Origin: a virus
Reading direction: 5' to 3' (one strand)
Virus record (IMG/VR): IMGVR_UViG_3300046517_000793
Coordinates: 1-46,405 of that record
Length of the DNA: 46,405 bases
Under the pieces are notes generated by a model that was not told the DNA's origin, made no database searches, and saw nothing but the letters and a program-made list of their open reading frames with translations. This document shows, piece after piece, positions 13,845 through 46,405 of the stretch. Every line of letters starts with the position of its first letter. Position 1 is the stretch's first letter. The position numbers and the translations under genes are program-made.

Positions 13845-14113
13845 GTGCGGAGAAAGCCACTGTGCGGCTGGCGGCAAGCCGCGCTCATCGCGCCCGTGTT
13901 CAGGCCGAGGCGGCGATGGCAGACTTCAATACCGCGCTCGACGCGCTCGATGCGGCCATCGCCGCGATGGGCGATTACAAGGTCGAGCAAATCATGCCGA
14001 TCGCTTATGACAGCCTGGGACGTCCGGTCTATTCAAAGCCGACGAGCAAGGAACTGCCCGACACCCCGCAAAGCGGGGACAGCGAAATCGTCGGCTATCC
14101 CCAAGAGCCCTGA
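13841..14113 (+). CDS. Hypothetical helical protein (90 aa)
   Basis: The ATG overlaps the previous stop as ATGA. Residues 10-45 form a long helix (ADFNTALDALDAAIAAMGDY) and the tail is Pro/Ser-rich. It converges with the giant late gene and overlaps its 3' end by 81 bp; its terminator lies inside the giant coding sequence. Function unknown. Confidence 0.6.
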   Translation: MSAEKATVRLAASRAHRARVQAEAAMADFNTALDALDAAIAAMGDYKVEQIMPIAYDSLGRPVYSKPTSKELPDTPQSGDSEIVGYPQEP

Positions 14114-17100
14114 CGCCAGCGAGCCGGCGCCGGCCTCGCTGCCCTGTTTTTGTTTTGGCTGCGGGTGGTAATAGCGCTGTTGTTGCTGCTCGCGGGTCAG
14201 AGGCTTGCTGCTTTCGCCCTTTGCCCCGGCGATAGACCGGGCAAACAGGTCCGACGCGGTCATCGACGTCCCATATTGTCCTAAGAGGGACAGGAGGTAG
14301 GACGCACGAGGACCACCCGGCAGCGCAGCCGCCACGGTGGCGCTAACCGGCATGCCGATTAGCGTCCAGAGGCCGCGCAGCATGCGGTATTCCGACGTAT
14401 TGGTCTCGGCGCTGCCCCCGCCGGTGGCCCAACCGACGATGTCCTGTAAGCTCTCGGCAAAGACATTGGCCTGGGCGCCTAGCGCCAGCGACGAGATTTC
14501 GTGTTCGTACCTGACGTGGGAGATCGCGTTAATCAGCGGGTCGGCGACACCACCAAGACCGATGCGCGAGAACGCCAGCGCCATGATGTTCTCGATGTAG
14601 CTGCCATCCTCCAGCCACTGGTTGGTGCGGTCGGTATCGAACAGCAGCTGCCGCAGCATCGTCGTCGGCAGCTGGATCATCATCATCCCGGCGAGCGAGG
14701 TGGCGGCATAGCCGGCCCACTTCGCCGTCCCGCTCAGCGTGCCCTGGACCTTGCCAAGCCGACCGCGCTCATAGGCCATTGTGGTAAACCAGCGATTAAA
14801 GAACGGATTGAGCACGGCCCGCTGAAAGCCAAAGTTGTACGATTGCAACCCGTAGATCCATCGCCCTAGCGCGGAGTTTGCACCGCGCGCCTTCTCGGAG
14901 GCGATCGGCTCGATCACCGTCTTCTCGACAAAGCGCTGAACCGCCTCGGCCCAACGCTGCCCCATCGGCGTCTGCGTCATCTCGTCGAGCGAAGGCATCT
15001 CGTCCCGGCTGGTGACCCACTTGGCAAACTCGGCGTGCTCGCTGTTCGGGATGCCCAGCTCGCGCAATTCGCCGTGCGGGTCGAACAGCGACCCCCGCCG
15101 CTGGTTGATGATCTGCTTGCCCCAGATCTTGAGGGCGGCATCCGCGCTGGCGATGGCGCCGACCTTGTTGGCGTTGGTGACGTAGGTGAGACCCGATCGC
15201 CGGTAGGCGTTCGACATCAGCCGGCCGGGGGAGCCTAGCAAGCCGGCAGTTCGCCCGGTGAGCATTGCCTCGCTAAGCCGGGTCGACGTTACCCCCAGGA
15301 CGTTGGCGATATCGCGCAGATGCTCGATCCGCTCGTTGGGCTTTAGCAGGTTGAGGTCGGCCAGCAACGCGCGGGTCGACGTCGTAAAACCATGAAAACC
15401 AGCCTTGAACGAGCCGGTCTGCATCGTTGCCACCATCGGCTCGGCGACTGTCGACCAGGCGGCGCGGCCCATCAACCCGATCGTATAGAGGCCGCGCGCC
15501 CAGGTGGCGAATTGATGGCCGGTCGACACCTCGTTCGAGGTGAGGATGCCGATCGAGCTTTCGATCGACCGCTTGATCTCGACACGATCCTCACGCGGCA
15601 CCCCCGCCGCCATCAGGTCGTTCATCACCTTGTCGAGAACTTCGCCTTTGGCGCCAAAGGTTTGGTTAAAGGCGATCTTGCGTGATAGCTGGTGGAAATA
15701 GTAGGGCAGCAATTCGCTAGGGCGAGTGAGAATGTAACCATTCTCGGCCATGATATCCCTTGCTTCGGCCGACAGGACGCGGTTCTTGAGAGGGTTGGCG
15801 CTGGGCAGCGTCCCGCCGGCGTTCTTGTAGCCCCACGGGACGTCATTTAGCGCGTAGACCCAATCATCGGCACGTTGCTTGGCCCAGGCATCCCGGATGG
15901 GATCGTGAAGTTGCGCAAGCAGCTGCTGTTGCTGCCGATCGAGATCCGCCAGCTTTTGCGGATCTGTCTCGTTGCGCATCTGCTCCTGGACCTGACCGAG
16001 CTTGGTCATCCCGTCATTGATCGATTGGGGCAGGTTCTTGCGGTTGAGGTCACCGTAGGCTTCGTGGATAAAGGCGCCGTTCTGCTGGCGCTGCTTGACC
16101 TCGAAATCGACCGCCATCGCATTGCTGATTGTGGCGTGCGCCTTTTGCCCGTCAGCCGTGATCTTGTCGTGGTCAAAGGCGATCGGGACGTAGCCCTCAT
16201 CTCGCGGCATTCCCACCGGGATGCCACCGCGCTCGACCTGATACCAAAAATCGTTGAGCAGAGCGCGGACCTCGCCGGCGGCACGCTGCACGTTGGCGGG
16301 GATCGGCCCGGCGCCGGTGTCGCGTCCCCGCAGCGCGTCCCATAGCTGCCGGTCGGTCTGCGCGCTGATCCGCGCGGTGTCGATCCCGTTATTGCGGAGG
16401 ATCGCGTCAAGCTTGTTGACGTGGCTCTGGGCCAGCCGATTGGCCAGCCGCTCAAAAGGGGTCGCCTGGAGCCTGCCCTCGGCGTAGCGATAGCCCAGCT
16501 TGTCCATGACATTGCCGATAACCCGGGCCGCAGCGTGGTTGCCCAGGTTTTCGTAGCGCTCGTGATAGACCCCCAGCTGACCCATGTTCGAGTAGGCATA
16601 AGGGGTGGCGACGTCCTTGAGGGTCAGCGCCCCGCGCAGGATGCCCTGCCTGGACCATCGCGGCACCTTCTCTGCACCCATCCGCGCGGCGGTGGTTTCC
16701 AGCCCTGCCAGCATCCGCTGCCGCCACGACGTGTAAGCGACGATCGGCTTCTTCAGCCCTGCGGCCAGCGCCGGGTTAGCCTGCGGCTCGGCCAGGTTGC
16801 GCCAGTGGATGGGGTCGAGGATGTCGTGATCGCTGGGGACGCTGGCCCGGGGATCGTGCCCCAGGATCTGGTTGCGTTGCAGGACCTGATGAAAGTCTTG
16901 CATCGCCTTAAAGATCGCGTCCCGGTCGGGGCCGTGCGGGTAGAGATCGTTAAACCGCTGGGTCGCCTGGTCGAGATAGGCCCGGTCGCCTTTGGTGATA
17001 AACTCGTTGCCGGCGCCCAGCACGTCGACCAGATGCGCAACAAACGCCTCGCCCGCCCGGGCCAGCAATTCCTCGGGCCGCGCGTGGTAACGCGACTGCG

Positions 17101-20100
17101 CCCCCATACGAAATGCGGTTGGGCCAATCGTCTGATGCGTCCTGGCGCCAGCGACAATGCGCCCAGCCTCGGCCGCGGCCGCTTGCCCCGCCTTGCCACC
17201 CTGCGCGGCTTTGGCGTTGAGATCGGCAACCCGGGCGGCTTCCAGCGCGTGGTCGTGAAAGATTGCGTTCATCACCCGGGCAAAGCCTTCCTCGGGGCTG
17301 CCCGGTCGGACATGGGTCTCCAACGCGCCCGCGCGAGTGCGGCTGCTCAGCAGCGAGCCGCGCCCAACCGGGTGATTGGCTAGCTTGTCGATCAGCGCGT
17401 GATCGAGCGCGTGGGTCCATTCATGGGCAAACGAGTTCGACCGATCCGGCATGTGGATCGATTTGGTATTGGGATCGTAGAGGCCGAGATAGGTATCTTT
17501 TCTGACGGACTTCAGGGGCTCAAGCCGCAGCGTGATTGTGCCATCAAGGCTCATCGCCTTCTCGGAATAGCCCAGCGCATGGGCCATCCACTGAAGGTTA
17601 TGATGCGCATCCAGGAGGGTATCGATCACCTTTTGCGGCTGCGCCTTGGGATCGACGACGACGTCCTTGAACCCGTAGATACGCTTCAAGCCGGCGCTGA
17701 GAACATCGATCTGATCCTGCACCGGCTTGTTGACCATGACGTCGGGGTCGTAGCCCAGATCCCGGAACGCCCGACGGTAGAGCGAGGGTCGGTCGGTGAT
17801 GTCGGGCGGTACGATGTTCGGCTGCCGGCGCATGTTCATTGCCGCGCGACCACGGCCGGCCTGTTGGAAGCGATCCGCAAGCGGCTGACCGCCGGGCGCG
17901 ACATTCACGCCCTTGGCTTGTGCTGCTAGTTCAGGCGGTAAGGAAAACTCGGCGCCGGGAGCCGCGCCAGCCTTGTTCTCGTGTTGCGCCAGTTCGGTGG
18001 TTGGGACGTCGACATAAGAAATATCGTGCCCGTAAGCTTCGCGAAATGGCAGGGCGATACCCGGCAAATCGTTGGTGAACTGCCGGGCAGTGCCGATCTC
18101 TCCTGGTCGATTGCCGCGCCATAACCGCGTGTAGCCATCCGCTACAGGCGGCAGCGCAGCCTGGATGGCGGCTGCGTCCTGGCGAAATCGCACGATCGGT
18201 GCCTCGCCTTTAACCGGCTCGTTGCTGATCGTCGGTCCCCGCGCGCCCGCGGTGTCTTGCTCTTCAAGCATCTCCTGGTGAGCGCCGGCAATGTGTTTGT
18301 CGGTGAGGTTATCGTCGATCGCCTTTCGCCAGATTTCCCGGAGTGCTCCGACCTGGTCAGCAGGGGCAGTGCCCTCCCCTACTGCATTGTCGATCGCTTG
18401 CCGATAGGCCGGGTCATTTCGTGCGGCCCAATGGTGGGCGAGAAATTTTGCTATATCGTCGGTGCTGTAACCAAAATGCAGTCCTTGGTCGATGCTACGC
18501 CCTGGGTCATCAGATCGAAGCGCGGACGTGGGGATATTCCGCTCGATCCTGCTAAACCCGGGGTCTTCGCTCGGAGCCATTCGCCCGCGGTGAACCGCCG
18601 CAGTGAAGTTTGCCAGTGACAGGTTCTCAGGGCTGTCAGGATGCGGCTGGCCCTGCGCGTTCTGCTCTTCTGCCTTCCGTATGCCTTGCGCCTCTTCAAA
18701 ACTCACAACCGAGCCATCAGCGCGAACAAACAGATTGCGGTCGGCTTTACTGCTGCCGGGGTCGACGCCACCGTTTTCACGAAGTGCTTGGTCGTAGGCT
18801 TCGCCGTGGGTCGCACCGGTATAAATCTTTCCGCCTACCCGCACAGCTGACGTTAACGTCTCCGGCGGTTGGCCCTGCGTTTTGTTCTGTGCATCCTGCT
18901 CTTCAAGCGTCAGGTGATCGGGCAACCGCTCGTTCGCCGGTGGGTGCCCTTGGGCGATGGCGTAAACAAACCCCGTGTTCGGGTCGCGCACCGCGACAAG
19001 CGGGTTCTCGCCCGGCCGCGCCATCAGATAGGTGTCGTGGTTGAGGTCCCCGTACTGCCCCAGAACAGCGTAGCGTTCCTCGGGGATCTCGACCGCGTGG
19101 CCCTCGGCGTCGTGCCCAACGACCATGACCTGGCCGGTTAGGGCATTGCCGTTTTGGTCTTTTACGGGGTCCCCATTCTCGTCCTTGGGGGCTTCGCCTT
19201 CGTAGGCCCCGGTCCAGGTGATGCCCTGCGTGGCGTCGACATGGGTCGACGTGACCAGGTCGTCGATCGCCTTGGTAGCTTTGAGATCGGTGTTGGTCTG
19301 CACCGGCTGGGTCTGCTCGGCATCCTTGAAATGCTGGTCGACGGTCGGATTGTGCCCCTCGTTGACCAGGACGCCGGAATGGCCGATCCAGCTATTGCCC
19401 AGGCTGTCGGTCGCCCGTACCAGGGTCTGACCTTGATCGGTGTTGGGAACCGTGGTGATACCTTGCTTGACCAACGCGTTATCGGGTGCGGGCGCTGGCG
19501 TCTCCGGTGCCTCGCGTTGCTGCTTGGTAGCGTCGAGCCACCGTCTGACGATCTCCTCCCGCCGGTTGACCGCGGCCTGGTGCACCCCCGCGCCGACAGC
19601 GTGAGGAAGACCGGCCGCTGCGCCAAAGAGTGCCGACGCGGCGATATCCTTGGGATCGCCCACCCCGGCCGTCAACGACTGATCGGGATTTAGCTGCGCC
19701 TTGTCGATGATGTTGTTGACGAGTTGCTGGGCTTGTTGGGCCGACGCCATAAAGAGGCCGTCCTGCCCCATGCGTGTCACCGCGGCGAGAAAGACGCGCT
19801 TCTCGACCCCCGACAGCGTGTTGAGCCAATGGGCCATCGGAAACGCCATGATCCCGGCCCCGGCGACCGATTTGAGGGCGGCGTCGACCGCAGCATCCTC
19901 GGGGGCATAGCCGGCCTTGAGGTTTTCCTGGTAGCTCTGGGAATAGGTTTGCATCCCGGCCACGCCCACCAGCGCCGGCAGGCCGCCCAGCGCGCCGGCA
20001 ACGACATAGACCGGGGCAGAGCCAAAGGCGGCGCCGATCTTTGTCGACAGCGCGTCCTCGTAGCCCGCCGGCGGGGTGATCTTCTCGCCCTGCCGGGTGA

Positions 20101-21943
20101 CCCAGTCGCCCGGCGCAGCGAGCGTCTGGCCGATCGTCTGAAAGGTCTTGTAGTAGGGTTCCTCCTGGATTGGTGGCGCGTTGGCGATCTGCCCTTCGAC
20201 CTGTTGGCGGATCTGCGTGCGCTGTTCCGGGGTCGCGTCCCGATACATCCCGGCAAAGCTTTGCTGAACCATATCGGTGGCCGGGATCGGCGGCGTCTCG
20301 CCGCGATCGATCCGGTCCATGATGTCGACTTGGTTGCTGGCCCGCTGCCGAGCCTGGGATGCGACCGTCGCGCTGCCGCCCTGAACGATGTTCCCGGGAC
20401 CGGCAGCCAGTTGCCCAATCCCCGTCACGAAGCTTCGTCCAAGGCCGGCGCCCAGCGCGGCGCCTTGATCCGGCATGATCCCTTGTGCCTGTTCCTCCTC
20501 CGACAGCGCTGGTTGCGCCACCGCTGGTTGTTCCGCTCCCGGCGCTGCCGTCCCCATCGACGCCTCGGACCCAAGCTCCGCGGGAACCGGGTAAGGTGGT
20601 TGCGGCTGCGCTGGTGGCGCAGCCGGCTGCACCGCTCCCGGTGCCGCCGTCCCCATCGATGCCTCGGACCCGAGCTCGGCAGGAGCCGGGTAAACGACGG
20701 ACACCTCTGGTAGCACCAGCTGCGGTGCCGGTTGCACCGCCCCCGGTGCGGCCGTCCCCATCGACGCCTCGGACCCAAGCTCGGCAGGAACCGGCAATGC
20801 CGGTGGCGGGACGACTTCCGGCTGCGGTGCAGCCGCGGGCTGCACTGCACCCGGTGCTGCCGTCCCAGCCGACGCCTCAGACCCGAGCTCTTGACCAGTC
20901 GGTAAGGCTGGCAGCAACGACGCGAACGATGACACCGATGGCACTTCCGGCTCGCCATAGAGCTCGGGTCGGTAGACCGGGGTTGCCCGGGACACGCTGG
21001 GCTGCGGGGCAGCCGGGGCGGTTTGCGTTTCCCAAGGCGGCGACGTGGGCCATTGCGGCGCCGCCGGCGACGCGGCCTCGGTTGGTTTCTCCCAAGGCGG
21101 GGACGTGGGCCACTGCGGCGTCGCGTCCTGGGACGTAGCGGGCGGGGCTGGCGACGGTGCTTGCTGCTGCTGCTGCCAAGGTGGGGTGGCCGGCCATTGC
21201 GGCTGCGCTGCCGCCGGTGCCGGTGCCGGCGTTGCGTCTGAGGACGCGGGCACGTCGGCCGGGGGCGCCGCCGGCTGGGCTGACGGCGGTTGTTGCTGGT
21301 CTGGTTGCTGCGTCTCCCACGGCTTGGTAGTGGGCCATTGCGGCGCTTGCTGCTCCGGCTGCTCAGGTGTCGCAGGCGCGGTTGGAGCCGCTACCGACGG
21401 GGTGGTGGCGAATTTTTGTTTGGCCGCGGCTGCTTCGCGATAGACCTCTTGGGGGTCGCCAAACCCGGGCGAAGCCCTGGCACCCCCAAGATCATAGTGC
21501 ATGATATCGCGCTGGCCGCTGCCCTTCTCCGTTTCAAAGTAATTGCCCCAGCCGAATTGCTGGGCTTTTTGCGGGTTGATGTACTGAAGATTGAGCAGCC
21601 CTTGCACCGCGGCATTACGATAAAGACGAGTGACGTCAGGGCCGCGGTTGGATATGTCGTTGCCGTTGTTATCGTAGATATGCCAATCCTCGGCATGGCC
21701 GGTAGCGTGCTGCGAAGAGGGATCACCACTGCGCACGCCCGATGTCATCACGGCGCGAAAGCCGGGCGGCAGGACCGTGGCAAAGGCCGACGCCATTGCC
21801 CGGTGCAGATCGGGGTCGACCCCCGAGAGGACGCCGGGGCCGGCACTGCCGCCACCGCGTCCTGGCACTAAGGGTGTCGGCGGCCCTGTCGCTCGCCCCG
21901 CGGTGCCTGTCCCAGCGCCCCAGGTAAAGTCGTCGAGCGGCAT
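14033..21943 (-). CDS. Giant polyvalent internal virion protein with M15 peptidase-like domain
   Basis: 2636 aa from the ATG at 21943, which overlaps the previous stop as TGATG (a GTG at 21946 is possible). Residues 45-155 resemble a D-Ala-D-Ala/M15 peptidase: SGVRSG, then SQHATGHAEDWHIYD (zinc ligands His and Asp) and a later HYD. It could cut cell-wall peptides during entry. Residues 200-480 are Pro/Ala/Gln-rich repeats. Near 1270 is an ART-like segment (LWRGNRPG, FTNDLPG, YVDVPTTEL, GAEFSLPP). Near 1509 is SFAHEWTHALDH, an HExxH zincin motif, with a downstream Glu in ARAGEAFVAHL. The last 400 residues are membrane-active-looking helices. Organisation recalls phage large polyvalent proteins and T7 gp16. 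It is the last gene of the late operon. Confidence 0.85.
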   Translation of the reverse strand: MPLDDFTWGAGTGTAGRATGPPTPLVPGRGGGSAGPGVLSGVDPDLHRAMASAFATVLPPGFRAVMTSGVRSGDPSSQHATGHAEDWHIYDNNGNDISNRGPDVTRLYRNAAVQGLLNLQYINPQKAQQFGWGNYFETEKGSGQRDIMHYDLGGARASPGFGDPQEVYREAAAAKQKFATTPSVAAPTAPATPEQPEQQAPQWPTTKPWETQQPDQQQPPSAQPAAPPADVPASSDATPAPAPAAAQPQWPATPPWQQQQQAPSPAPPATSQDATPQWPTSPPWEKPTEAASPAAPQWPTSPPWETQTAPAAPQPSVSRATPVYRPELYGEPEVPSVSSFASLLPALPTGQELGSEASAGTAAPGAVQPAAAPQPEVVPPPALPVPAELGSEASMGTAAPGAVQPAPQLVLPEVSVVYPAPAELGSEASMGTAAPGAVQPAAPPAQPQPPYPVPAELGSEASMGTAAPGAEQPAVAQPALSEEEQAQGIMPDQGAALGAGLGRSFVTGIGQLAAGPGNIVQGGSATVASQARQRASNQVDIMDRIDRGETPPIPATDMVQQSFAGMYRDATPEQRTQIRQQVEGQIANAPPIQEEPYYKTFQTIGQTLAAPGDWVTRQGEKITPPAGYEDALSTKIGAAFGSAPVYVVAGALGGLPALVGVAGMQTYSQSYQENLKAGYAPEDAAVDAALKSVAGAGIMAFPMAHWLNTLSGVEKRVFLAAVTRMGQDGLFMASAQQAQQLVNNIIDKAQLNPDQSLTAGVGDPKDIAASALFGAAAGLPHAVGAGVHQAAVNRREEIVRRWLDATKQQREAPETPAPAPDNALVKQGITTVPNTDQGQTLVRATDSLGNSWIGHSGVLVNEGHNPTVDQHFKDAEQTQPVQTNTDLKATKAIDDLVTSTHVDATQGITWTGAYEGEAPKDENGDPVKDQNGNALTGQVMVVGHDAEGHAVEIPEERYAVLGQYGDLNHDTYLMARPGENPLVAVRDPNTGFVYAIAQGHPPANERLPDHLTLEEQDAQNKTQGQPPETLTSAVRVGGKIYTGATHGEAYDQALRENGGVDPGSSKADRNLFVRADGSVVSFEEAQGIRKAEEQNAQGQPHPDSPENLSLANFTAAVHRGRMAPSEDPGFSRIERNIPTSALRSDDPGRSIDQGLHFGYSTDDIAKFLAHHWAARNDPAYRQAIDNAVGEGTAPADQVGALREIWRKAIDDNLTDKHIAGAHQEMLEEQDTAGARGPTISNEPVKGEAPIVRFRQDAAAIQAALPPVADGYTRLWRGNRPGEIGTARQFTNDLPGIALPFREAYGHDISYVDVPTTELAQHENKAGAAPGAEFSLPPELAAQAKGVNVAPGGQPLADRFQQAGRGRAAMNMRRQPNIVPPDITDRPSLYRRAFRDLGYDPDVMVNKPVQDQIDVLSAGLKRIYGFKDVVVDPKAQPQKVIDTLLDAHHNLQWMAHALGYSEKAMSLDGTITLRLEPLKSVRKDTYLGLYDPNTKSIHMPDRSNSFAHEWTHALDHALIDKLANHPVGRGSLLSSRTRAGALETHVRPGSPEEGFARVMNAIFHDHALEAARVADLNAKAAQGGKAGQAAAAEAGRIVAGARTHQTIGPTAFRMGAQSRYHARPEELLARAGEAFVAHLVDVLGAGNEFITKGDRAYLDQATQRFNDLYPHGPDRDAIFKAMQDFHQVLQRNQILGHDPRASVPSDHDILDPIHWRNLAEPQANPALAAGLKKPIVAYTSWRQRMLAGLETTAARMGAEKVPRWSRQGILRGALTLKDVATPYAYSNMGQLGVYHERYENLGNHAAARVIGNVMDKLGYRYAEGRLQATPFERLANRLAQSHVNKLDAILRNNGIDTARISAQTDRQLWDALRGRDTGAGPIPANVQRAAGEVRALLNDFWYQVERGGIPVGMPRDEGYVPIAFDHDKITADGQKAHATISNAMAVDFEVKQRQQNGAFIHEAYGDLNRKNLPQSINDGMTKLGQVQEQMRNETDPQKLADLDRQQQQLLAQLHDPIRDAWAKQRADDWVYALNDVPWGYKNAGGTLPSANPLKNRVLSAEARDIMAENGYILTRPSELLPYYFHQLSRKIAFNQTFGAKGEVLDKVMNDLMAAGVPREDRVEIKRSIESSIGILTSNEVSTGHQFATWARGLYTIGLMGRAAWSTVAEPMVATMQTGSFKAGFHGFTTSTRALLADLNLLKPNERIEHLRDIANVLGVTSTRLSEAMLTGRTAGLLGSPGRLMSNAYRRSGLTYVTNANKVGAIASADAALKIWGKQIINQRRGSLFDPHGELRELGIPNSEHAEFAKWVTSRDEMPSLDEMTQTPMGQRWAEAVQRFVEKTVIEPIASEKARGANSALGRWIYGLQSYNFGFQRAVLNPFFNRWFTTMAYERGRLGKVQGTLSGTAKWAGYAATSLAGMMMIQLPTTMLRQLLFDTDRTNQWLEDGSYIENIMALAFSRIGLGGVADPLINAISHVRYEHEISSLALGAQANVFAESLQDIVGWATGGGSAETNTSEYRMLRGLWTLIGMPVSATVAAALPGGPRASYLLSLLGQYGTSMTASDLFARSIAGAKGESSKPLTREQQQQRYYHPQPKQKQGSEAGAGSLASGLLGIADDFAVPALRGVGQFLARRL
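14117..14156 (+). terminator. Terminator of the 13.66-14.11 kb genes, inside the giant gene
   Basis: CAGCGAG (14117-14123) and CTCGCTG (14135-14141) enclose the self-complementary CCGGCGCCGG, and CCCTGTTTTTGTTTT follows. The orientation suits the + strand genes ending at 14113. On the minus strand the same bases encode the C-terminal part of the giant virion protein. Confidence 0.65.
20530..20890 (-). repeat. Four-copy ELGSEAS repeat inside the giant gene
   Basis: On the minus strand about four copies of PAELGSEASMGTAAPGAVQP (first copy varies) are encoded at about residues 355-480, spaced by 25-35 residues of Pro/Ala/Gln linker. The DNA copies are also close to identical, pointing to recent duplication. 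The repeat is probably a flexible spacer between the peptidase-like domain and the rest. Confidence 0.8.
20995..21340 (-). repeat. Repeated QWP-x-x-PW motif inside the giant gene
   Basis: At about residues 200-320 the giant protein has five copies of a Trp-containing motif: APQWPTTKPWETQ, PQWPATPPWQQQ, PQWPTSPPWEKP, PQWPTSPPWETQ and a partial variant. Each is embedded in Pro/Ala/Gln linker. Regularly spaced aromatic motifs in a disordered segment suggest docking sites for a partner or stickers for assembly. Confidence 0.75.
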
Positions 21944-22113
21944 CACCTACCCATGCGGGGAGGACGCGGCAGCGGTTTCTTCGCGGCCGGGCGCGGCACG
22001 CGCTTGCTGCGTATGATCGGCTCGGCAGGAAGACGCGGTGCGACCGGCAAACCCGGTGGTGGCGCCACGCCACCAAGGGCGGCGCCGGGGACGGTGATCC
22101 TGGGTGTTTTCAT
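21943..22113 (-). CDS. Small Pro/Arg-rich protein (56 aa)
   Basis: ATG at 22113 overlaps the stop of the 512-aa gene (ATGA) and its own stop overlaps the giant gene start (TGATG). The product begins MKTPRITVPGAALGG and ends in a basic Pro/Lys/Arg stretch (KRVPRPAAKKPLPRPP). It is probably disordered and may bind DNA or a membrane. Function unknown. Confidence 0.55.
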   Translation of the reverse strand: MKTPRITVPGAALGGVAPPPGLPVAPRLPAEPIIRSKRVPRPAAKKPLPRPPRMGR

Positions 22114-38401: not shown

Positions 38402-39339
38402 ACCGTCCCCCACAAGGTGCCGAGCCACATCAGGGTCACCGAAGCAAAATCCGAGTAAAGGGTGTATGTCGCGTTATTGTCGATGGTTGCCGCGGCGGCG
38501 ATGGTGATCGGGGTGCTGCCGGCCGTGCCGAGCGCATCCTTGACGGTGACCATCTGTCCAATCACACGACCATTGCCGATGGTAATCGTCGCACCGCCGG
38601 GTACCTGGACCAGAAGCGTGTAATTCGCACCGGTGGGCGGGGTAAAGCCGCCGGAGTTAGTAAAAGGCGGCAGGGTAAAGGCTTGCGGCAGCGTGAAAAC
38701 AAAGATCTGCACGATATCGCCGGCGACGGCGGGCTGGGTGAGGGTGATCCGGTTGGCCACCCCTGTTTCGTTGTAGTCATCGGTTGGGGTCAACAGGAGA
38801 CCGCGGCGGAAAACCTGGGTGCGCTGCGGGATAGAGGGGTCGAGCAGCAAGGTGCTGCCGTTCCGGTCGGGACCCTCGAAAACCGTCTGAGTGGTGGTGG
38901 CGACGTAGACGTAGCGAGCGGTGTTGGTCGGCCCCGGTGGCAAGGCGTTCTGCCAGTTTTGCACCTCCTGGGACGCATGATTGGCCCACCAGCGCGAGGA
39001 CCAGTGATCCCCGGTGACATCCATAAAAGCCAGGATATTAGGCGGGATAGTGTCCGGCATGTACTCAGCCCAGGCCCCCGCCAGGGTCGCGTAGTCCGAG
39101 GCCGCGGCAGTACCGTCCTGCCCGGCGATCTCGGGCGGGGTGAACCGCGGCTGGGTTTTCAGCGAACCATCGCTGTTGAGGCTGGTGCCGACCCAGGCGA
39201 TGACATCCGAGATCACCTTGGCAGTCCGAGCGTACTCACTGTCGAGTTTGTCACCGGGGGGTGGCGCGGTGGGGTTGTTCACCTGGAAAGAGGTGAAAGA
39301 ATACTGCGGCTTAAGCGGCTTGGGTTGAGGTGCGCTCAT
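38398..39339 (-). CDS. Tail-fibre/anchor protein 2 (313 aa)
   Basis: ATG at 39339 overlaps the stop of the large tail-fibre gene as ATGA. The N-terminal part ([20 protein letters not shown]) and the [10 protein letters not shown] motif near residue 115 repeat the same elements of the larger fibre, so the two share an anchor domain. The C-terminal part is beta-rich ([20 protein letters not shown]). It may be a second fibre or adhesin attached at the same site. Confidence 0.75.
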
Positions 39340-41498
39340 GCTCGTTCCGTCTCTAAGGCCGTGACCTTGCCAGTCAGCTCCTGCACCGCCTGCCACAGCA
39401 CCGCGACGAGACCGCCGAGGTCGATACTGTCAGTCTCGCCGCCCAGCACTTTCGCCACGTCCTGAGCAAGAAAACCGCGGTTGAACCTGTCCGAAAAACC
39501 CGGCGGGGCGTCATCCAGCGGGTTCCAGCGGAAGCTCTTGGGCTCGATCGCCGCGACCAAAGGCAGGCACTCGGGAAGCGGCTCGATGTCGTGTTTGAGG
39601 CCGGCGTCGGACGTGAGGAGGACGTTGTTGGCGTAAACCTGGGTCGCGTTGAGCGTGCCAGCGCCCTTGTCGCCGCCCGTAGGCGCGCCGACCTGAACGC
39701 CCGGACCCACCGTCAGCGTTGTCACCATCGTGTTCGTGCCGGGCGTTTTCGAACTCACCAGGAGACGCGTGCCCGAGGCGGATGTGCTCCAATTCTCGCT
39801 AGCCGCAAACTGCAGGCTGCCGCCGCCCGAATATGCCGAACCGTTCCAGCCCTCTGCGTCGATCACGCCTAACTGCGCGCCACTGTTAATCGCAGCGGGC
39901 GAAGCGGGCGTGCCGCCGGCCCGGCCCATCGACAGGACCGGGTAGACGGTGTTCGATGCGACATATCCGGCAAGATAACCAGCGCCCGGTCCAAACGATC
40001 CCCAAACATCGTGCGCCACGAGCGGCCCAGTCCCGGCCCCCAAAAGAAGCGACTGGGTAAAACCCGCGCCGGCATTGGCTAGCGTCGGCAGCGGCAGCGT
40101 CGTCACGCCGGTGCCGCCCTTGGGCACAGTAACGGTCGCCAGCGTCACGGGGATCGTGGTCGTCCCCGATCCCGATGCGTCACCGCTGAGCGTGATGGTC
40201 TGGTTGCCCGCGATGTAAGGCCCCACCGTCGCGCCGTTGATATACGCGAAGAACCCGCCCGCCGAGGTCGTCCACATATCGCCGTTGACGGGCGCCGTCG
40301 GCGCGACACCGTGCGGCATGGTGAGGCTTGCTCTCCCCGCCGCGCTCGCAACCGTCGTGATTTTGCCCACAAAGGTCGGGGAGAGGATCGGCGCCGCGCC
40401 AAGGCTGGTCAGCGCGGCGGCAGCGGTGCTTGCTGCGGTGCCGCCGTTGGCGATCGCTACAGGGGTCGAGAGGTTGAGCGTGACCGCGCCGGTTGTGCCG
40501 CCGCCGCTAAGGCCGGTCCCCGCCGTGACCGCCGTGATCGTGCCGCCCGCGCCGGTCGCACCGGTCGCCCCGGCCGCGCCGGTCGCCCCCGTAGGACCGG
40601 CAGCACCCGCACCCCCAGCCGTCCCGGGCGATCCTGTCGCGCCCGTAGGCCCGGTAGGCCCCGGCACTATCGAGGCGGCGCCGGTCGACCCGGTCGGGCC
40701 CTGGGGCCCGGCGGGGCCGACCGGCCCCGAGGGCCCGGCCGGGCCAGTCGCGCCGCCGCCGGGGCCGATCGGGCCCTGGGGCCCGGCGGGGCCGGTCGGG
40801 CCGGGCGGGCCTAAGTGGTTGACGTCGAACACCGTGGCCGCCTGGTTGGCCCACCAGCGCGAGGACCAGTGATCACCGGTGATCCCCATGATGGCGAGGA
40901 TGTTGGGTGGGATCGGGTCGGGCATGTGCTCGGCCCAGGCGTAGGTAACGTCGGCGTAAGCCTGGCAAGTCGCGACATCCCCCGCGGTGTCGCGGGCAGC
41001 GTTGCCGGTCTCGACGTAGAAAGCCTCGACCTCGTCCACCCGATCGTGCGCCGCGAGGGCCGCCGCCGCCGCGGTGCGTGCAAAACCGGCGGCCTCGGCG
41101 GCGGCGGCCTGGGCGCGGGCGTTGCCGGCATCGGCAGCTTGAGCCGCGGCCGAGGCCCCGGTCGCGCTAGTCCCGGCCGCGCTGGAGGCAGCCAGGGCGT
41201 TCTTCACCAGGCCCGCGACCTGGGTCGCCGCGGTGGCGACGATATCGTCGAAAAGCCCAGGGATCAGCTGGGTTTTGCCGACCGTGGCAGAACGCAACGA
41301 ACCGTCGGAATTGAGGCTGGAGGAGGCCCAAGCGAGGGTCTGAGAGAGGGCCTTATCGGTGCGCGCAAGTTCACCGTCGAGCTTGTCACCGGGAGGGGCG
41401 GCGTGGGGGTGGTAGACTTGGTGATGGGTGAACGAAAACTGCCGCGCCGGGAGCACAGGCATCGGGGCGTGCTTACCGTTCACCACCGGGATCTGCAT
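39336..41498 (-). CDS. Tail fibre with collagen-like stem and S74 chaperone domain (720 aa)
   Basis: Start chosen at ATG 41498, giving [20 protein letters not shown], because the next segment ([28 protein letters not shown]) aligns with the other fibre; starts further upstream lack support. An Ala-rich coiled coil follows, then the anchor motif [13 protein letters not shown], then Gly-x-y collagen-like repeats ([16 protein letters not shown]) and a beta-rich shaft. The C-terminus ([12 protein letters not shown], then [12 protein letters not shown]) is an S74 intramolecular chaperone that would cut itself off after trimer assembly. It binds the host surface. Confidence 0.85.
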
Positions 41499-41767
41499 GT
41501 GCTGGTCTGCGTCATAACCAACTGTACTCGACAAAGGCTTTCTCTGGCAATCCCCGACGACGACCCTTCTCATCGGGCTATCTATCTGATAAAACAGACA
41601 AAAGTTAAAGTTGGCGCGCTTCATCCCGCAGGGGGTCATATAGGGCGCGGGCCGCGGGGGGATCCCCGGGGGGTGCGGACTTCGCCAGCTGGCCACGGTC
41701 TGGCGTCCCAGGACGCGCTGTCCTGAGCCAGGACGCGGAACGCGTTTATTATCAAAGGCTTAGGGCC
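41499..41767. other. Intergenic region between TerS and tail-fibre genes
   Basis: 269 bp between the TerS stop and the chosen fibre start. Upstream in-frame starts of the fibre gene lie here (for example at 41573 and 41696) without good ribosome-binding sites. G-rich stretches and GGGGATCCCC (about 41668-41677) are present, and GTCCCAGGAC (41705-41714). I see no clear promoter or gene. Confidence 0.4.
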
Positions 41768-42599: not shown

Positions 42600-42628
42600 T
42601 TGACAGTCCTTACAGACAAGAATAAAAG
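42600..42628 (+). promoter_or_regulatory. Promoter of the ATPase/vWA operon
   Basis: Perfect -35 TTGACA (42600-42605), a 17-bp spacer and -10 TAAAAG (42623-42628). The start would lie near 42635, at the edge of a hairpin (42634-42662) that would form the 5' end of the mRNA. CAGGACA direct repeats (about 42571-42589) lie just upstream, also in front of the divergent late operon. Confidence 0.65.
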
Positions 42629-42633
42629 GATAT

Positions 42634-42662
42634 TCGGTTCCGTATGTATGTACGGAAGCCGA
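42634..42662 (+). promoter_or_regulatory. 5' UTR hairpin of the ATPase/vWA operon
   Basis: TCGG-TTCCGTA (42634-42644) pairs with TACGGAA-G-CCGA (42651-42662), with one bulged G and the loop TGTATG. It would be the first structure of the mRNA started at the promoter at 42600-42628. It may stabilise the mRNA or be a protein-binding site. Confidence 0.55.
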
Positions 42663-42708
42663 TAACAAAAGACTATTGGACCTAACTACTTAGACAGGAC
42701 TTGAAAAG

Positions 42709-44112
42709 ATGAGACTAACAAACGAGGAACGCGCGGCACTACGCCGAGCGGTAAATGCGCATCCCGACCTAAAGAAAATCGCGCCAGACGTGCACGTTTC
42801 CAGCCTTAACAAGGATGGTTTACTTGCGCTGGCCACCAGTCTCGGGATCGATCCCGCAACCATGCAGGTAGCGGCACCTGTCGTTACTGCACCAATACAC
42901 AAGGCAGAGGTTATGGGCGATAGCGAAGAAATTTGCATCCCGGCGCCCGACGCGATCGAAACCGCCATTGATGACGAGCTCGCTCGCATCCGTGGGTTGT
43001 TAACCACGGGAGGTTTCGCGCAATTGGATGGCGTTCTACGCGACCTGGTGCGCGAGGCTAAGAAGCCAGCCGAGATTATCTACCAGGTAGGCAATGGCAC
43101 CACGGCACCCGCCGTGCCGCATGCTCGTCCCATCGCCAAAGCAACATGGGGTAAAACCTTTGGTATTCGCGGCGCAATGGCGTCCCGGGAAGTTACCCTG
43201 TGGGATGCTCAGGACGCGCCGGTTATCGATCAGCATTACGTCTGGCCGGATAGCCTATCCGCCGTGCTGAGCCAGCTAGCGCGCAAGCGCAACGTGTTTC
43301 TCACTGGCCCGAAAGGCGCCGGTAAAACCACGTTTGCCGAACAGCTGGCCGCGCGACTGCATCGCCCGCTGTCGGTTATCAGCTGCGATGGCGGTTTAGA
43401 GGCTATCGAACTAATCGGCCAAAACCTGCCAAAGGATGGCGGTTTCGCATGGCAGGATGGCCAATTGCTGCAAGCAATTCGGCGTCCCGGGACCATCATT
43501 CTGGTAGACGAGCCAAGCGTTGCACGTCCTAGCGCGTTGTTCGTGCTCCAACATCTTTTGCAGTTCCGCGAGATTTACATTCGCGAGACTGGCGAAAAGA
43601 TCCCGTGCGCCCCTGGCGTTTGTTTTCTCGCCGCGGACAACACCAATGGCACGGGCAACGGCGCCCGTCGTGGCTTTACCGATACCAATCGGATTAACGC
43701 TGCGACGCTCGATCGTTTCGGCATCATGGTCGCAGTGGAATACCTGCCAGCCGATAAGGAAGCACGCGTTCTGGTCGCGCGCACGGGATGCACGCCAGCG
43801 CTGGCCGATATCCTGGTCAACGCCGCGGGACTAACCCGCACCGTGGCCGCTAGTGGCAACCTTGTCATGCCCATTGGTCTCCGACAGCTGTTGTCGTGGG
43901 CCGAATTGCTCACCGATGGCATAGCACCGCAAACCGCCTTGGAGCTCGCAGTGCTCAACAAGGCCAGCGAAGCCGACGTAGAAACTCTACGCCAGCAATG
44001 CATGCTGACCATCAACCGCCAAGCAATCGCGGATGCCCTGGCTAACACCGCGGCGCCGGCACCGGCCGCTCCCGTAATTGCTGGCCAATTCTCCCCATCA
44101 GACGAGGAATAA
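42709..44112 (+). CDS. CobS/MoxR-like AAA+ ATPase
   Basis: 467 aa with AGGAC nine bases before ATG. The N-terminal 110 residues begin MRLTNEERAALRRAVNAHPD and contain HVSSLNKDGLLALATSLGID, a SAP-like helix pair. The AAA+ core has Walker A GPKGAGKTT near residue 198, Walker B ILVDEPS near 262, sensor AADNT and the Arg-finger-like RINAATLDRFG. This is the CobS/MoxR branch, in which the ATPase works with a vWA protein, as in cobalt chelation (CobS-CobT) or complex assembly. Here the partner is directly downstream (6-bp gap). No cobalamin genes are present. Confidence 0.85.
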   Translation: MRLTNEERAALRRAVNAHPDLKKIAPDVHVSSLNKDGLLALATSLGIDPATMQVAAPVVTAPIHKAEVMGDSEEICIPAPDAIETAIDDELARIRGLLTTGGFAQLDGVLRDLVREAKKPAEIIYQVGNGTTAPAVPHARPIAKATWGKTFGIRGAMASREVTLWDAQDAPVIDQHYVWPDSLSAVLSQLARKRNVFLTGPKGAGKTTFAEQLAARLHRPLSVISCDGGLEAIELIGQNLPKDGGFAWQDGQLLQAIRRPGTIILVDEPSVARPSALFVLQHLLQFREIYIRETGEKIPCAPGVCFLAADNTNGTGNGARRGFTDTNRINAATLDRFGIMVAVEYLPADKEARVLVARTGCTPALADILVNAAGLTRTVAASGNLVMPIGLRQLLSWAELLTDGIAPQTALELAVLNKASEADVETLRQQCMLTINRQAIADALANTAAPAPAAPVIAGQFSPSDEE

Positions 44113-44118
44113 ACCCCA

Positions 44119-45996
44119 ATGTTTAGCAACCATATCGTTCCCTATGCCGCTGTCGTGACAGCGGCACGGGATACCGCGGAGCGTATATGCGCCCGCGGCC
44201 GAAACCCTATCCGCGTGACTGTCACAACCTTTGGCGGAACTACTGCCAGCGTAAAATGGGATGATCGGGAGGCAACGCTAAACCTCCCGACCATGCCGGC
44301 ATCGCAGATGCTGTCACGCGCAGAGGCAAACCAGATTGTCGGACTGATCGCGCACGAGTGCTGCCATGTCATGCATACGTCGTGGCCAGACTGGCTTGCG
44401 GCCGTGCAGGATGGCACCGCGATCAAAGAGTTAACCAACGGGATCGAAGACGTGCGAATTGAAGCACGCGAGATAGCCCGTAAGGCACTCCCGGGACTGA
44501 AAGACGCGCTCTCCGACACCATGACAATGATGCATGGCAAGTCGCTTGCCGCGTGTGAAGCACGCGGGACGCCGATCGGCACCGTGGCAAGCGATGCGTC
44601 TTACGTCATCGCCATGCTGGGGCGCCTTGCCAATGACTACAACGTCCCATGCGCCAAGAACCTTGGCACCGGGATCGCACCAGCATGGCGTCCCGCGATC
44701 GATCATGCGTTGCAACGCATCCCGGGGCTAGCCAATACGGCCGCGGCGCATGCCTTGGCGATTGAAGTGCTGGCCATGCTGAAAGCGGCCGCGCCGCAAC
44801 CCGTGCAACCGCAACCGAGCGATCAGGATGACTCCCAGGGCTCCCAGGATGGCGATAGCGATCAGGATGGCTCCCAGGGCTCCCAGGATGGCGATAGCAA
44901 TCAGGATGGCTCCCAGGGCTCCCAGGATGGCGATAGCGATCAGGATGGCTCCCAGGGCTCCCAGGATGGCGATAGCGATCAGGATGGCTCCGAGAGCGAC
45001 CAGGATGGCGATAGCGATCAGGATGGCTCCGAGAGCGACCAGGATGGCGATAGCGGCGATACCGGCACCGGTGCCGGCGGGATCGATGACGATGCGTGGC
45101 TAAACGCATCGCCATCGGTCGACGATATCGCCGCAGACAAGGGCGCCAAAGATATCCTTGGTGAACGCACGCTGAAGCGTACATGCCTGAACAATTTCCG
45201 CCGCGCCAACTATCGAACGGGAGACGGGACGAACTACCCCTACCTAACCGACCCCATCAAAAACCGCATCCCGCGGCCAGCATTGCTAGCCGACAGCGTT
45301 TCGCGCCTAGTCCTGAGCGAAGCACGCAATACCAACGATCGCTACTTGAGCTCGGGACGCTTCGACCGGCGCGCGATCGGCCGCGCGTCGTGGGGCGCCA
45401 GCAACGTGTTCGCACGTAAGGCTTACGCTCCCGGGGTCGAAACCGCGGTATTCCTGTTGGTCGACGGTTCCGACAGCATGCGAGCAGACGCTCGCATGGT
45501 CGACGCGCAATCCTTGGCCTACCATCTAGGCCAAGCGATCGACGATGCCGGCGCCCAATGCGCCATTGGCGCGTTCTATGCCGATGGCACGCGAGCTGCG
45601 CGAGAGATAATGCGACAATTCGATATCGGCATCGTCATGGCCAAGGATTGGCATGAGCCTGTCGACCTTGGCCGCATCGCCGCGCTAACCCCGGATGGCA
45701 TCACGCCGCTATCGGCCGCGATCATCGCGGCCAGCGAATTGCTCGCCGCGTTGGACGTCGACCGACGCATATGCCTGCCACTCACCGATGGCCAGTGCGA
45801 TCTAGGTCCCGATGCCGTGCGCGATGCCTGCGCCATCGCCGCGACAATGGGCGTCGAAGTAGGAGGCTTAGGGATCGGTGGCGGCACAGATTGCGCCGGC
45901 ACCTTCCCGGTAGGTATCGACCTTGGCGCCGGCGCCAACGTATCGACCGCGGGATTGAACCTGCTCGTCGACATGCTCGAAAGGGGTCGCGCCTAG
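44119..45996 (+). CDS. CobT-like vWA protein with N-terminal HExxH motif
   Basis: 625 aa. Near residue 78 is AHECCHVMHTSW (HExxH), and ELTNGIEDVRIEAREIAR supplies a possible third ligand Glu, as in the metallopeptidase-like N-terminus of vWA/CobT proteins. Residues 235-312 are an acidic repeat linker (see 44821-45054). Near 445 the vWA domain has LLVDGSDSM (MIDAS DxSxS), with later THR/ASP elements (LTPDGITPLSAAI, LPLTDGQCD). It should bind Mg and act with the upstream AAA+ ATPase on a target protein or complex. Being phage-encoded, it may inhibit, remodel or cleave a host factor; this is inference. Confidence 0.85.
   Translation: MFSNHIVPYAAVVTAARDTAERICARGRNPIRVTVTTFGGTTASVKWDDREATLNLPTMPASQMLSRAEANQIVGLIAHECCHVMHTSWPDWLAAVQDGTAIKELTNGIEDVRIEAREIARKALPGLKDALSDTMTMMHGKSLAACEARGTPIGTVASDASYVIAMLGRLANDYNVPCAKNLGTGIAPAWRPAIDHALQRIPGLANTAAAHALAIEVLAMLKAAAPQPVQPQPSDQDDSQGSQDGDSDQDGSQGSQDGDSNQDGSQGSQDGDSDQDGSQGSQDGDSDQDGSESDQDGDSDQDGSESDQDGDSGDTGTGAGGIDDDAWLNASPSVDDIAADKGAKDILGERTLKRTCLNNFRRANYRTGDGTNYPYLTDPIKNRIPRPALLADSVSRLVLSEARNTNDRYLSSGRFDRRAIGRASWGASNVFARKAYAPGVETAVFLLVDGSDSMRADARMVDAQSLAYHLGQAIDDAGAQCAIGAFYADGTRAAREIMRQFDIGIVMAKDWHEPVDLGRIAALTPDGITPLSAAIIAASELLAALDVDRRICLPLTDGQCDLGPDAVRDACAIAATMGVEVGGLGIGGGTDCAGTFPVGIDLGAGANVSTAGLNLLVDMLERGRA
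44821..45054 (+). repeat. Six-copy 39-bp coding repeat (acidic linker)
   Basis: Six consecutive 39-bp units (44821, 44860, 44899, 44938, 44977, 45016). Four encode DQDGSQGSQDGDS (first has Asp for Gly, third starts with Asn) and two encode DQDGSESDQDGDS. The DQDG and DGDSDQDG spacing resembles Dx[DN]xDG calcium-binding loops. Nearly identical DNA copies suggest unequal recombination changes copy number. Confidence 0.9.
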
Positions 45997-46136
45997 TGCG
46001 CGGCCTTTTGATGCTGCTAGGGATGTTCCTGTGGCTTGCGTTCGCTGTCGCTCGCGAGGGTAAGGGCGAGCACCCCTACACGCTACCAGCGCCGGATAGC
46101 GATCCGGCGCCAACCGTGCGACAGCCGCGCGACTAA
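45996..46136 (+). CDS. Small single-pass membrane peptide (46 aa)
   Basis: GTG at 45996 overlaps the TAG of the vWA gene (TAGTG), with AAAGGGG shortly upstream. A single hydrophobic stretch (LLMLLGMFLWLAFAVA) is followed by a charged, Pro-rich tail (GEHPYTLPAPDSDPAPTV). It has no recognised family. Coupling to the vWA gene implies that it serves the same system, for example as a membrane anchor or a signal-peptide-like element. Confidence 0.55.
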   Translation: MRGLLMLLGMFLWLAFAVAREGKGEHPYTLPAPDSDPAPTVRQPRD

Positions 46137-46156
46137 CGCGCTTAGCTCCGACCCAT

Positions 46157-46189
46157 CCCGGGCGCCAGCAATGGCGCCCGGGTTTTTTT
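46157..46189 (+). terminator. Strong intrinsic terminator of the ATPase/vWA operon
   Basis: Perfect 10-bp stem CCCGGGCGCC (46157-46166) / GGCGCCCGGG (46173-46182), loop AGCAAT, and a seven-T tract (46183-46189). It closes the operon starting at 42709. Confidence 0.9.
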
Positions 46190-46193
46190 ATGT

Positions 46194-46328
46194 CCAGGGG
46201 CTCGACAGCCAGGGGCTCGACAGCCAGGGGCTCGACAGCCAGGGGCTCGACAGCCAGGGGCTCGACAGCCAGGGGCTCGACAGCCAGGGGCTCGACAGCC
46301 AGGGGCTCGACAGCCAGGGGCTCGACAG
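46194..46328. repeat. Nine tandem 15-bp repeats
   Basis: CCAGGGGCTCGACAG is repeated nine times without change or gap, directly after the terminator and next to the window end. The copies are identical, so they are recent or maintained. It is not CRISPR-like, since units are short and contiguous. It could be an iteron-like replication or partition site or a packaging signal. Confidence 0.95.
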
Positions 46329-46346
46329 CCGCCCGAGCGGACCCAA

Positions 46347-46404
46347 ACTCACGGCGAAAAACTCACGGCGATTTTTGTCTTTACTCACGGCGAAACTCAC
46401 GGCG
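46347..46404. repeat. Four copies of ACTCACGGCG
   Basis: Copies start at 46347, 46361, 46383 and 46395, mostly preceded by A/T-rich bases (AAA or TTT). Spacing varies, so it is not a simple tandem repeat. The pattern of GC core plus A/T flanks at the end of the window suggests a protein-binding cluster, perhaps at the replication or packaging end. Confidence 0.75.
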
Positions 46405-46405
46405 C

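Follow-up and report, generated by a model that had tools for sequence, protein, structure and literature searches.

The presence of a CobS-like and a CobT-like gene side by side in a phage raises the question as to whether such a pair serves cobalamin synthesis or instead drives the remodelling or cleavage of other proteins. The window (the whole 46,405-base stretch analysed here, virus record IMGVR_UViG_3300046517_000793) encodes an integrase, a repressor, a SNF2-type helicase, an exonuclease and a DNA polymerase together with a major head protein, a portal, a large terminase and tail-fibre genes, a gene content that we read as that of a tailed phage with a temperate lifestyle. Microcystis phage Mae-Yong1326-1, a tailed virus known to carry cobST (PMC9503304), is almost collinear with it (identities of 54% for TerL, 68% for the major capsid protein and 41% for CobS), and the closest match is the viral contig G003 (91% for the major capsid protein, 84% for the portal and 83% for the terminase). 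Elsewhere in the window, a 2,637-aa protein (14033-21946, - strand) is homologous over 1,304 aa (31%) to a Mae-Yong1326-1 protein annotated as a peptidoglycan transglycosylase, and a tail-fibre gene (39336-41696, - strand) has collagen-like Gly-x-y repeats, tail-fibre PHROG matches and a C-terminal region which by eye resembles an intramolecular chaperone domain.

The cobST unit and its surroundings

The cobS, cobT and peptide genes lie at the right end of the window, read rightward and are closed by a terminator:

~42630..42663, + strand: palindromic stretch ATATTCGGTTCCGTATGTATGTACGGAAGCCGAT upstream of cobS, kept in the closest relative (L010)
42709..44112, + strand: CobS-like MoxR AAA+ ATPase, 467 aa (AAA_5, CbbQ_C, phrog_249)
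44119..45996, + strand: CobT-like metallopeptidase-vWA protein, 625 aa (phrog_1576; structure model)
44119..44796, + strand: its N-terminal zincin-like domain, residues 1-226 (invariant residues; AF2 pLDDT 94.5, pTM 0.90)
44800..45216, + strand: acidic linker, largely a 39-bp tandem repeat, predicted to be disordered
45325..45993, + strand: vWA domain (top structural matches the NorD vWA and the midasin MIDAS)
45996..46136, + strand: small membrane peptide, 46 aa, with a GTG start overlapping the cobT stop (TAGTG) and one hydrophobic stretch
46157..46189, + strand: intrinsic terminator (hairpin 46157-46182 with an 11-bp stem, a GCAA loop and a T7 tail, z = -3.5)

These proteins match known families far better than chance would allow. 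The ATPase has a Walker A motif, GPKGAGKT (residues 200-207, nt 43306-43329), and matches AAA_5 (E=7.6e-19) and CbbQ_C (E=1.5e-8), each above its gathering score, a combination that places it among the MoxR-type AAA+ proteins of the CobS/CbbQ/NorQ branch; it also matches phrog_249 (2.4e-49) and, midasin aside, the solved structures nearest to it are CobS, CbbQ and NorQ. Identity to relatives is 68% in L010, 48% in L011 and L013 and 41% in L003, while a scan of viral contigs with a single CobS sequence found no relative. The CobS/MoxR-like ATPase proposed in the initial annotation is thus borne out by its reading frame, Walker A motif and two domains. The pair is absent from a related phage, RHph_N65, and is therefore not essential to all relatives.

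The CobT-like protein is joined in the middle by a linker whose 39-bp repeat (44818-45055, 6.1 copies, 96%) accounts for most of its length and whose model has a pLDDT <50 at residues 253-363. A 'Ca-like' linker had been suggested here. The linkers of relatives consist of other acidic low-complexity sequence (GEGSGEG, EGEGEPQEAQ, GDDSQGDDQ), which means that an acidic repeat is common to them and the Ca-like motif is not, and we reject the suggestion in favour of a repeat-expanded acidic linker that varies in sequence among relatives.

A promoter had been placed at 42600, where a TTGACA is indeed present, but a promoter scan found no sigma-70 site there and L010 lacks the hexamer, and this assignment was dropped; the palindrome at 42630..42663 may instead be an operator or promoter element. 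The terminator was borne out and is a strong one. Right after it, at 46194-46330, are nine perfect head-to-tail copies of the 15-bp unit CCAGGGGCTCGACAG, and the right end of the window (46346-46405) contains CTCACGGC repeats at 46348, 46362, 46384 and 46396, which recur in the closest relative before its primase-like gene (L336:1864-1893) and are possibly iterons of a replication origin.

The window ends too early on the right. In G003 a DUF5906 primase-like gene (L336:2042-4363) comes after the unit and runs towards it. L336 is the other end of G003 and holds the remainder of its cobT, both ends of this contig lying inside a repeat that matches the cobT linker repeat, which marks an assembly break in a genome that is probably circular or permuted. 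Relatives of the primase-like gene are present in L002 and L014, and the corresponding place in Mae-Yong1326-1 is taken by a gene for a 'RecA-family ATPase', likewise convergent, the product of which gave no match to the G003 primase-like protein.

The coupled 46-aa transmembrane peptide was likewise upheld, as a 44-aa homologue of the same plan directly follows cobT in L336 (L336:1102-1236, 40% identity, pairwise E=2e-6, with a common HPYTxPAP motif), and the gene is accordingly real in this lineage. No further relatives were found in viral contigs or the other loci examined, so that among these loci the peptide is known only from the window and its nearest relative. A coupled membrane ORF follows cobT in 1/8 window-type loci and 4/~196 other viral loci and hence does not belong to cobT loci in general; the three-gene block, which it had been proposed to look for in other phages, was rejected as a general arrangement. 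It had also been suggested that the unit encodes a host-takeover or counter-defence protease anchored by the peptide. The accessory distribution of the pair, lacking in RHph_N65 and shared by phages and conjugative elements, is in keeping with this, but the peptide is restricted to two phages and a PADLOC search left both it and the CobT-like protein unmatched, the CobS-like protein giving only generic ATPase hits. A defence or host-takeover role is unsupported, gene context pointing more to DNA replication and repair, and we regard it as very improbable.

Conservation of the N-terminal site and the cobaltochelatase question

In the predicted model of the CobT-like protein, HECCH (residues 79-83, nt 44353-44367) lies within helix 67-86 and E110 of EDVRIE (residues 110-115, nt 44446-44463) within helix 100-121, giving the layout of a gluzincin, whose third-ligand Glu comes from a helix downstream of the one with HExxH. 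Together with the MIDAS motif DGSDSM of the vWA domain (residues 449-454, nt 45463-45480), this agrees with the CobT-like vWA protein with HECCH and a third-ligand Glu described in the initial annotation. A PDB fold search with the N-terminal domain found nothing significant (best E 0.3), although its weak matches, none of them significant, were rich in zincins (selecase/jannalysin, M61, IrrE, SprT). As a separate observation, the top PDB sequence match of the viral N-terminal-domain profile was AcrIIA26 (9zq6_B, E=0.0037); it covers A6 profile positions 98-146, window CobT residues ~107-150, in the N..ED..IE...G..N stretch and may be due to chance.

Residues H79, E80, H83, N107, E110, D111 and E115 are invariant in all viral homologues that cover the N-terminus (213 rows, ~210 distinct, with 122 representatives at <80% identity in four divergent groups), the lone exception being a protein at L017:2216-4507 which has HEIGGH, an HExxxH with a one-residue insertion, and is otherwise fully CobT-like with an AAA+ gene adjacent. 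The pattern used for the A3 scan contained HExxH and that for A4 its first His, and for this reason the invariance rests mostly on the cyanophage scan, whose patterns were free of HExxH and in which 75/75 covered rows nonetheless have it, and on the contrast with cellular CobT. The latter has S/A-M-A-L-R at the HExxH position and Q for D111, and the motif occurs in 0/80 cellular proteins of one sample and 0/30 of another. HExxH is kept in 5/5 homologues of ICE/plasmid type, which were picked out of bacterial genomes because their N-termini matched. Alignment A1, with eight sequences, was too diverse for a contig scan, and a profile scan of genome contigs with alignment A2 found no relative. 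The complete HExxH and Glu site claimed for the window is thus strictly conserved in viral homologues. It is also standard for the family in viruses, plasmids and ICEs, and the pairing of a MoxR ATPase with a metallopeptidase-vWA protein is published (PMC7824862), so the arrangement cannot be called unusual as had been thought.

Viral cobST has been published as encoding cobaltochelatase subunits that would work with a host CobN, with the 'peptidase' label of cobT called a mistake (PMC8651126). On this proposal the phage genes are an auxiliary metabolic pair that inserts cobalt and raises cobalamin for DNA synthesis. The homology behind it is real, since PDB CobS is matched at 1.8e-23 and PDB CobT by profile (alignment A1) at 6.5e-53, and PF06213, the Pfam CobT family, is found in 33/38 viral N-terminal domains, the window's own domain taken alone being without a Pfam match; judged from these profiles, the N-terminal domains of CobT and of the viral proteins are homologous. 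Scores against the equivalog models are however far below their cut-offs, with 85.9 bits against 558.6 for CobS (TIGR01650) and 24.1 bits against 759 for CobT (TIGR01651), and a search for CobN (PF02514) was negative in the window and 9 related viral records, which may be incomplete, and a host CobN is conceivable. This agrees with the earlier remark that cobalamin partner genes are missing. The window has HECCH and EDVRIE where the N-terminal pattern of cellular CobT lacks HExxH and reads E-Q-A-R-V-E-A, and in a tree of vWA domains 12/13 cellular CobT rows form a clade of their own on a long branch with 100/100 support, L330 being a divergent outlier. The tree is unrooted and cannot by itself separate loss from gain of HExxH. 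Given the low equivalog scores, the lack of CobN, the invariant HExxH...N..ED...E and the separate clade of cellular CobT, we reject a cobaltochelatase identity for the pair and hold the auxiliary metabolic proposal to be improbable.

Because the CobT-like partner has an intact protease-type zinc site, which the real B12 enzymes lack, an ATP-driven remodeller of proteins or a protease is the likelier identity for it. Conservation of Glu80, the putative general base, argues for a catalytic HExxH domain and not one that only binds metal. A non-proteolytic metal-insertion or assembly chaperone, similar to NorQ/NorD or RavA/ViaA and with an HExxH domain that holds or loads metal, would account for a vWA domain closest to NorD and an ATPase closest to CobS, CbbQ and NorQ, all of them remodelling or metal-insertion motors. 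We find this unlikely, as a strict Glu80 with the downstream N..ED...E is more what one would expect of a catalytic zincin than of a plain set of metal ligands.

Neighbouring genes and related systems

The cobS and cobT genes are paired in 9/10, 83/83, 43/45 and 70/81 loci of the four groups, every failure being at a contig end. Near the pair, loci of the SSU5 type have DNA Pol III alpha (67/83), those of the cyanophage type a sliding clamp (54/81) and a pyrimidine-dimer glycosylase (38/81), those of the CRP type a glycosylase (20/45), and relatives of the window type a DUF5906 primase-like gene. A Pyr_excise gene (pyrimidine-dimer-glycosylase-like) lies near cobT at L007:6037-6531 and L009:5343-5912, in Roseobacter-type phages and cyanophages, with 37% identity between the two. 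Neighbours of this kind are common in phage early regions and the linkage is therefore weak evidence of function, and the window itself departs from it in having the unit beside its late operon and tail-fibre genes, a placement that recurs in L010 and L002.

With adjacent phrog_249 CobS-like and CobT-like genes in a record that has terminase, portal and capsid, the window belongs to the known viral cobST cluster, in which a CobS-like AAA+ gene is likewise followed by a CobT-like vWA gene; it differs from the published account in that HExxH is invariant in the viral proteins and absent from true CobT. In group 2.2 jumbo phages a MoxR AAA+ protein is paired with a vWA protein that begins with a metallopeptidase domain (ASV44728/ASV44729, likened here by description), for which a role in virion assembly was proposed (PMC7824862). 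Membership in the cobST cluster and the prior description of this pair mean that the window does not hold a new kind of system; what is new, at the level of sequence comparison, is the systematic contrast supporting the peptidase label and weakening the B12 reading. A chaperone-protease that processes structural proteins during virion assembly would suit a unit beside late genes, yet the usual neighbours are replication and repair genes, the family also occurs on conjugative elements, which build no virion, and nothing in this 46-kb temperate phage supports such a role, to which we give a low probability.

Cellular CobNST (PDB 9uka and others) has homologous ATPase and vWA domains and an N-terminal domain homologous by profile, and is set apart from the window by its CobN, by S/A-M-A-L-R in place of HExxH and by the equivalog scores. 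NorQ/NorD has a MoxR motor and, of the solved structures, the vWA fold closest to that of the window, and its ATP hydrolysis has been shown to pull or twist the partner (PMC13036017), whereas NorD has no match to the HExxH-domain profile and the known target is nitric oxide reductase. The CobS/DUF3150/VWA module of conjugative plasmids and ICE-type elements resembles the window in having a CobS-like AAA+ protein and an HExxH-vWA protein by recombination genes, as in the ICE-like L332 (CobS-like AAA+ of 358 aa; SSB, RecT, YqaJ exonuclease, primase and TraG nearby), but has an extra DUF3150 gene between the pair and very low similarity to the window. DUF3150 genes accompany 4/5 of the ICE/plasmid-type homologues (L331-L335), and a literature search on DUF3150/CobS returned nothing on function. 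A tblastn search with the L332 protein matched 2,329 plasmid records, mostly predicted conjugative and counted irrespective of HExxH, and the same search of plasmids with the window CobT gave no match.

Proposed mechanism and meaning for the family

The gene pair, its domains, the invariant site that true CobT does not have, the lack of CobN and the recurrent linkage to replication and repair genes lead us to lean, with only slightly more confidence than doubt, towards a phage MoxR AAA+/vWA machine in which the zinc-metallopeptidase-like N-terminal domain of the partner cleaves or remodels protein, plausibly in replication or repair. The protease-remodelling idea put forward at the outset is supported in part, as regards MoxR/vWA architecture, conserved site and missing cobalamin partner, and it is not new. 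In such a machine a CobS-like hexamer would dock on the vWA/MIDAS domain at the C-terminus of its CobT-like partner and ATP hydrolysis would, by analogy with NorQ/NorD, pull or twist the flexible acidic linker. The N-terminal HExxH domain would thereby be presented to a target protein, to cleave it or strip it from its complex, the target presumably belonging to the phage replication or repair apparatus favoured by gene context. The 46-aa peptide may, speculatively, tether the machine to the membrane in this lineage. What we infer here is that the site binds zinc and the protein is proteolytic, that a twisting step takes place and that the target acts in replication or repair.

In phages the genes of this family, which has CobS-like matches in 520 phage records and relatives in >2,000 plasmid records, are commonly labelled 'auxiliary metabolic' or assigned to B12 synthesis. 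It is possible, though we consider it doubtful, that the 'CobST' of phages and conjugative elements is an old and widespread AAA+-driven metalloprotease that remodels replication and repair complexes and that true CobT is a derived branch in which the protease site was lost, a direction of change that is our own supposition on an unrooted tree. Whether HExxH is present or not tells the proteins of mobile elements apart from true CobT in each group sampled, and this simple residue test makes the function of phage cobST testable by point mutants.
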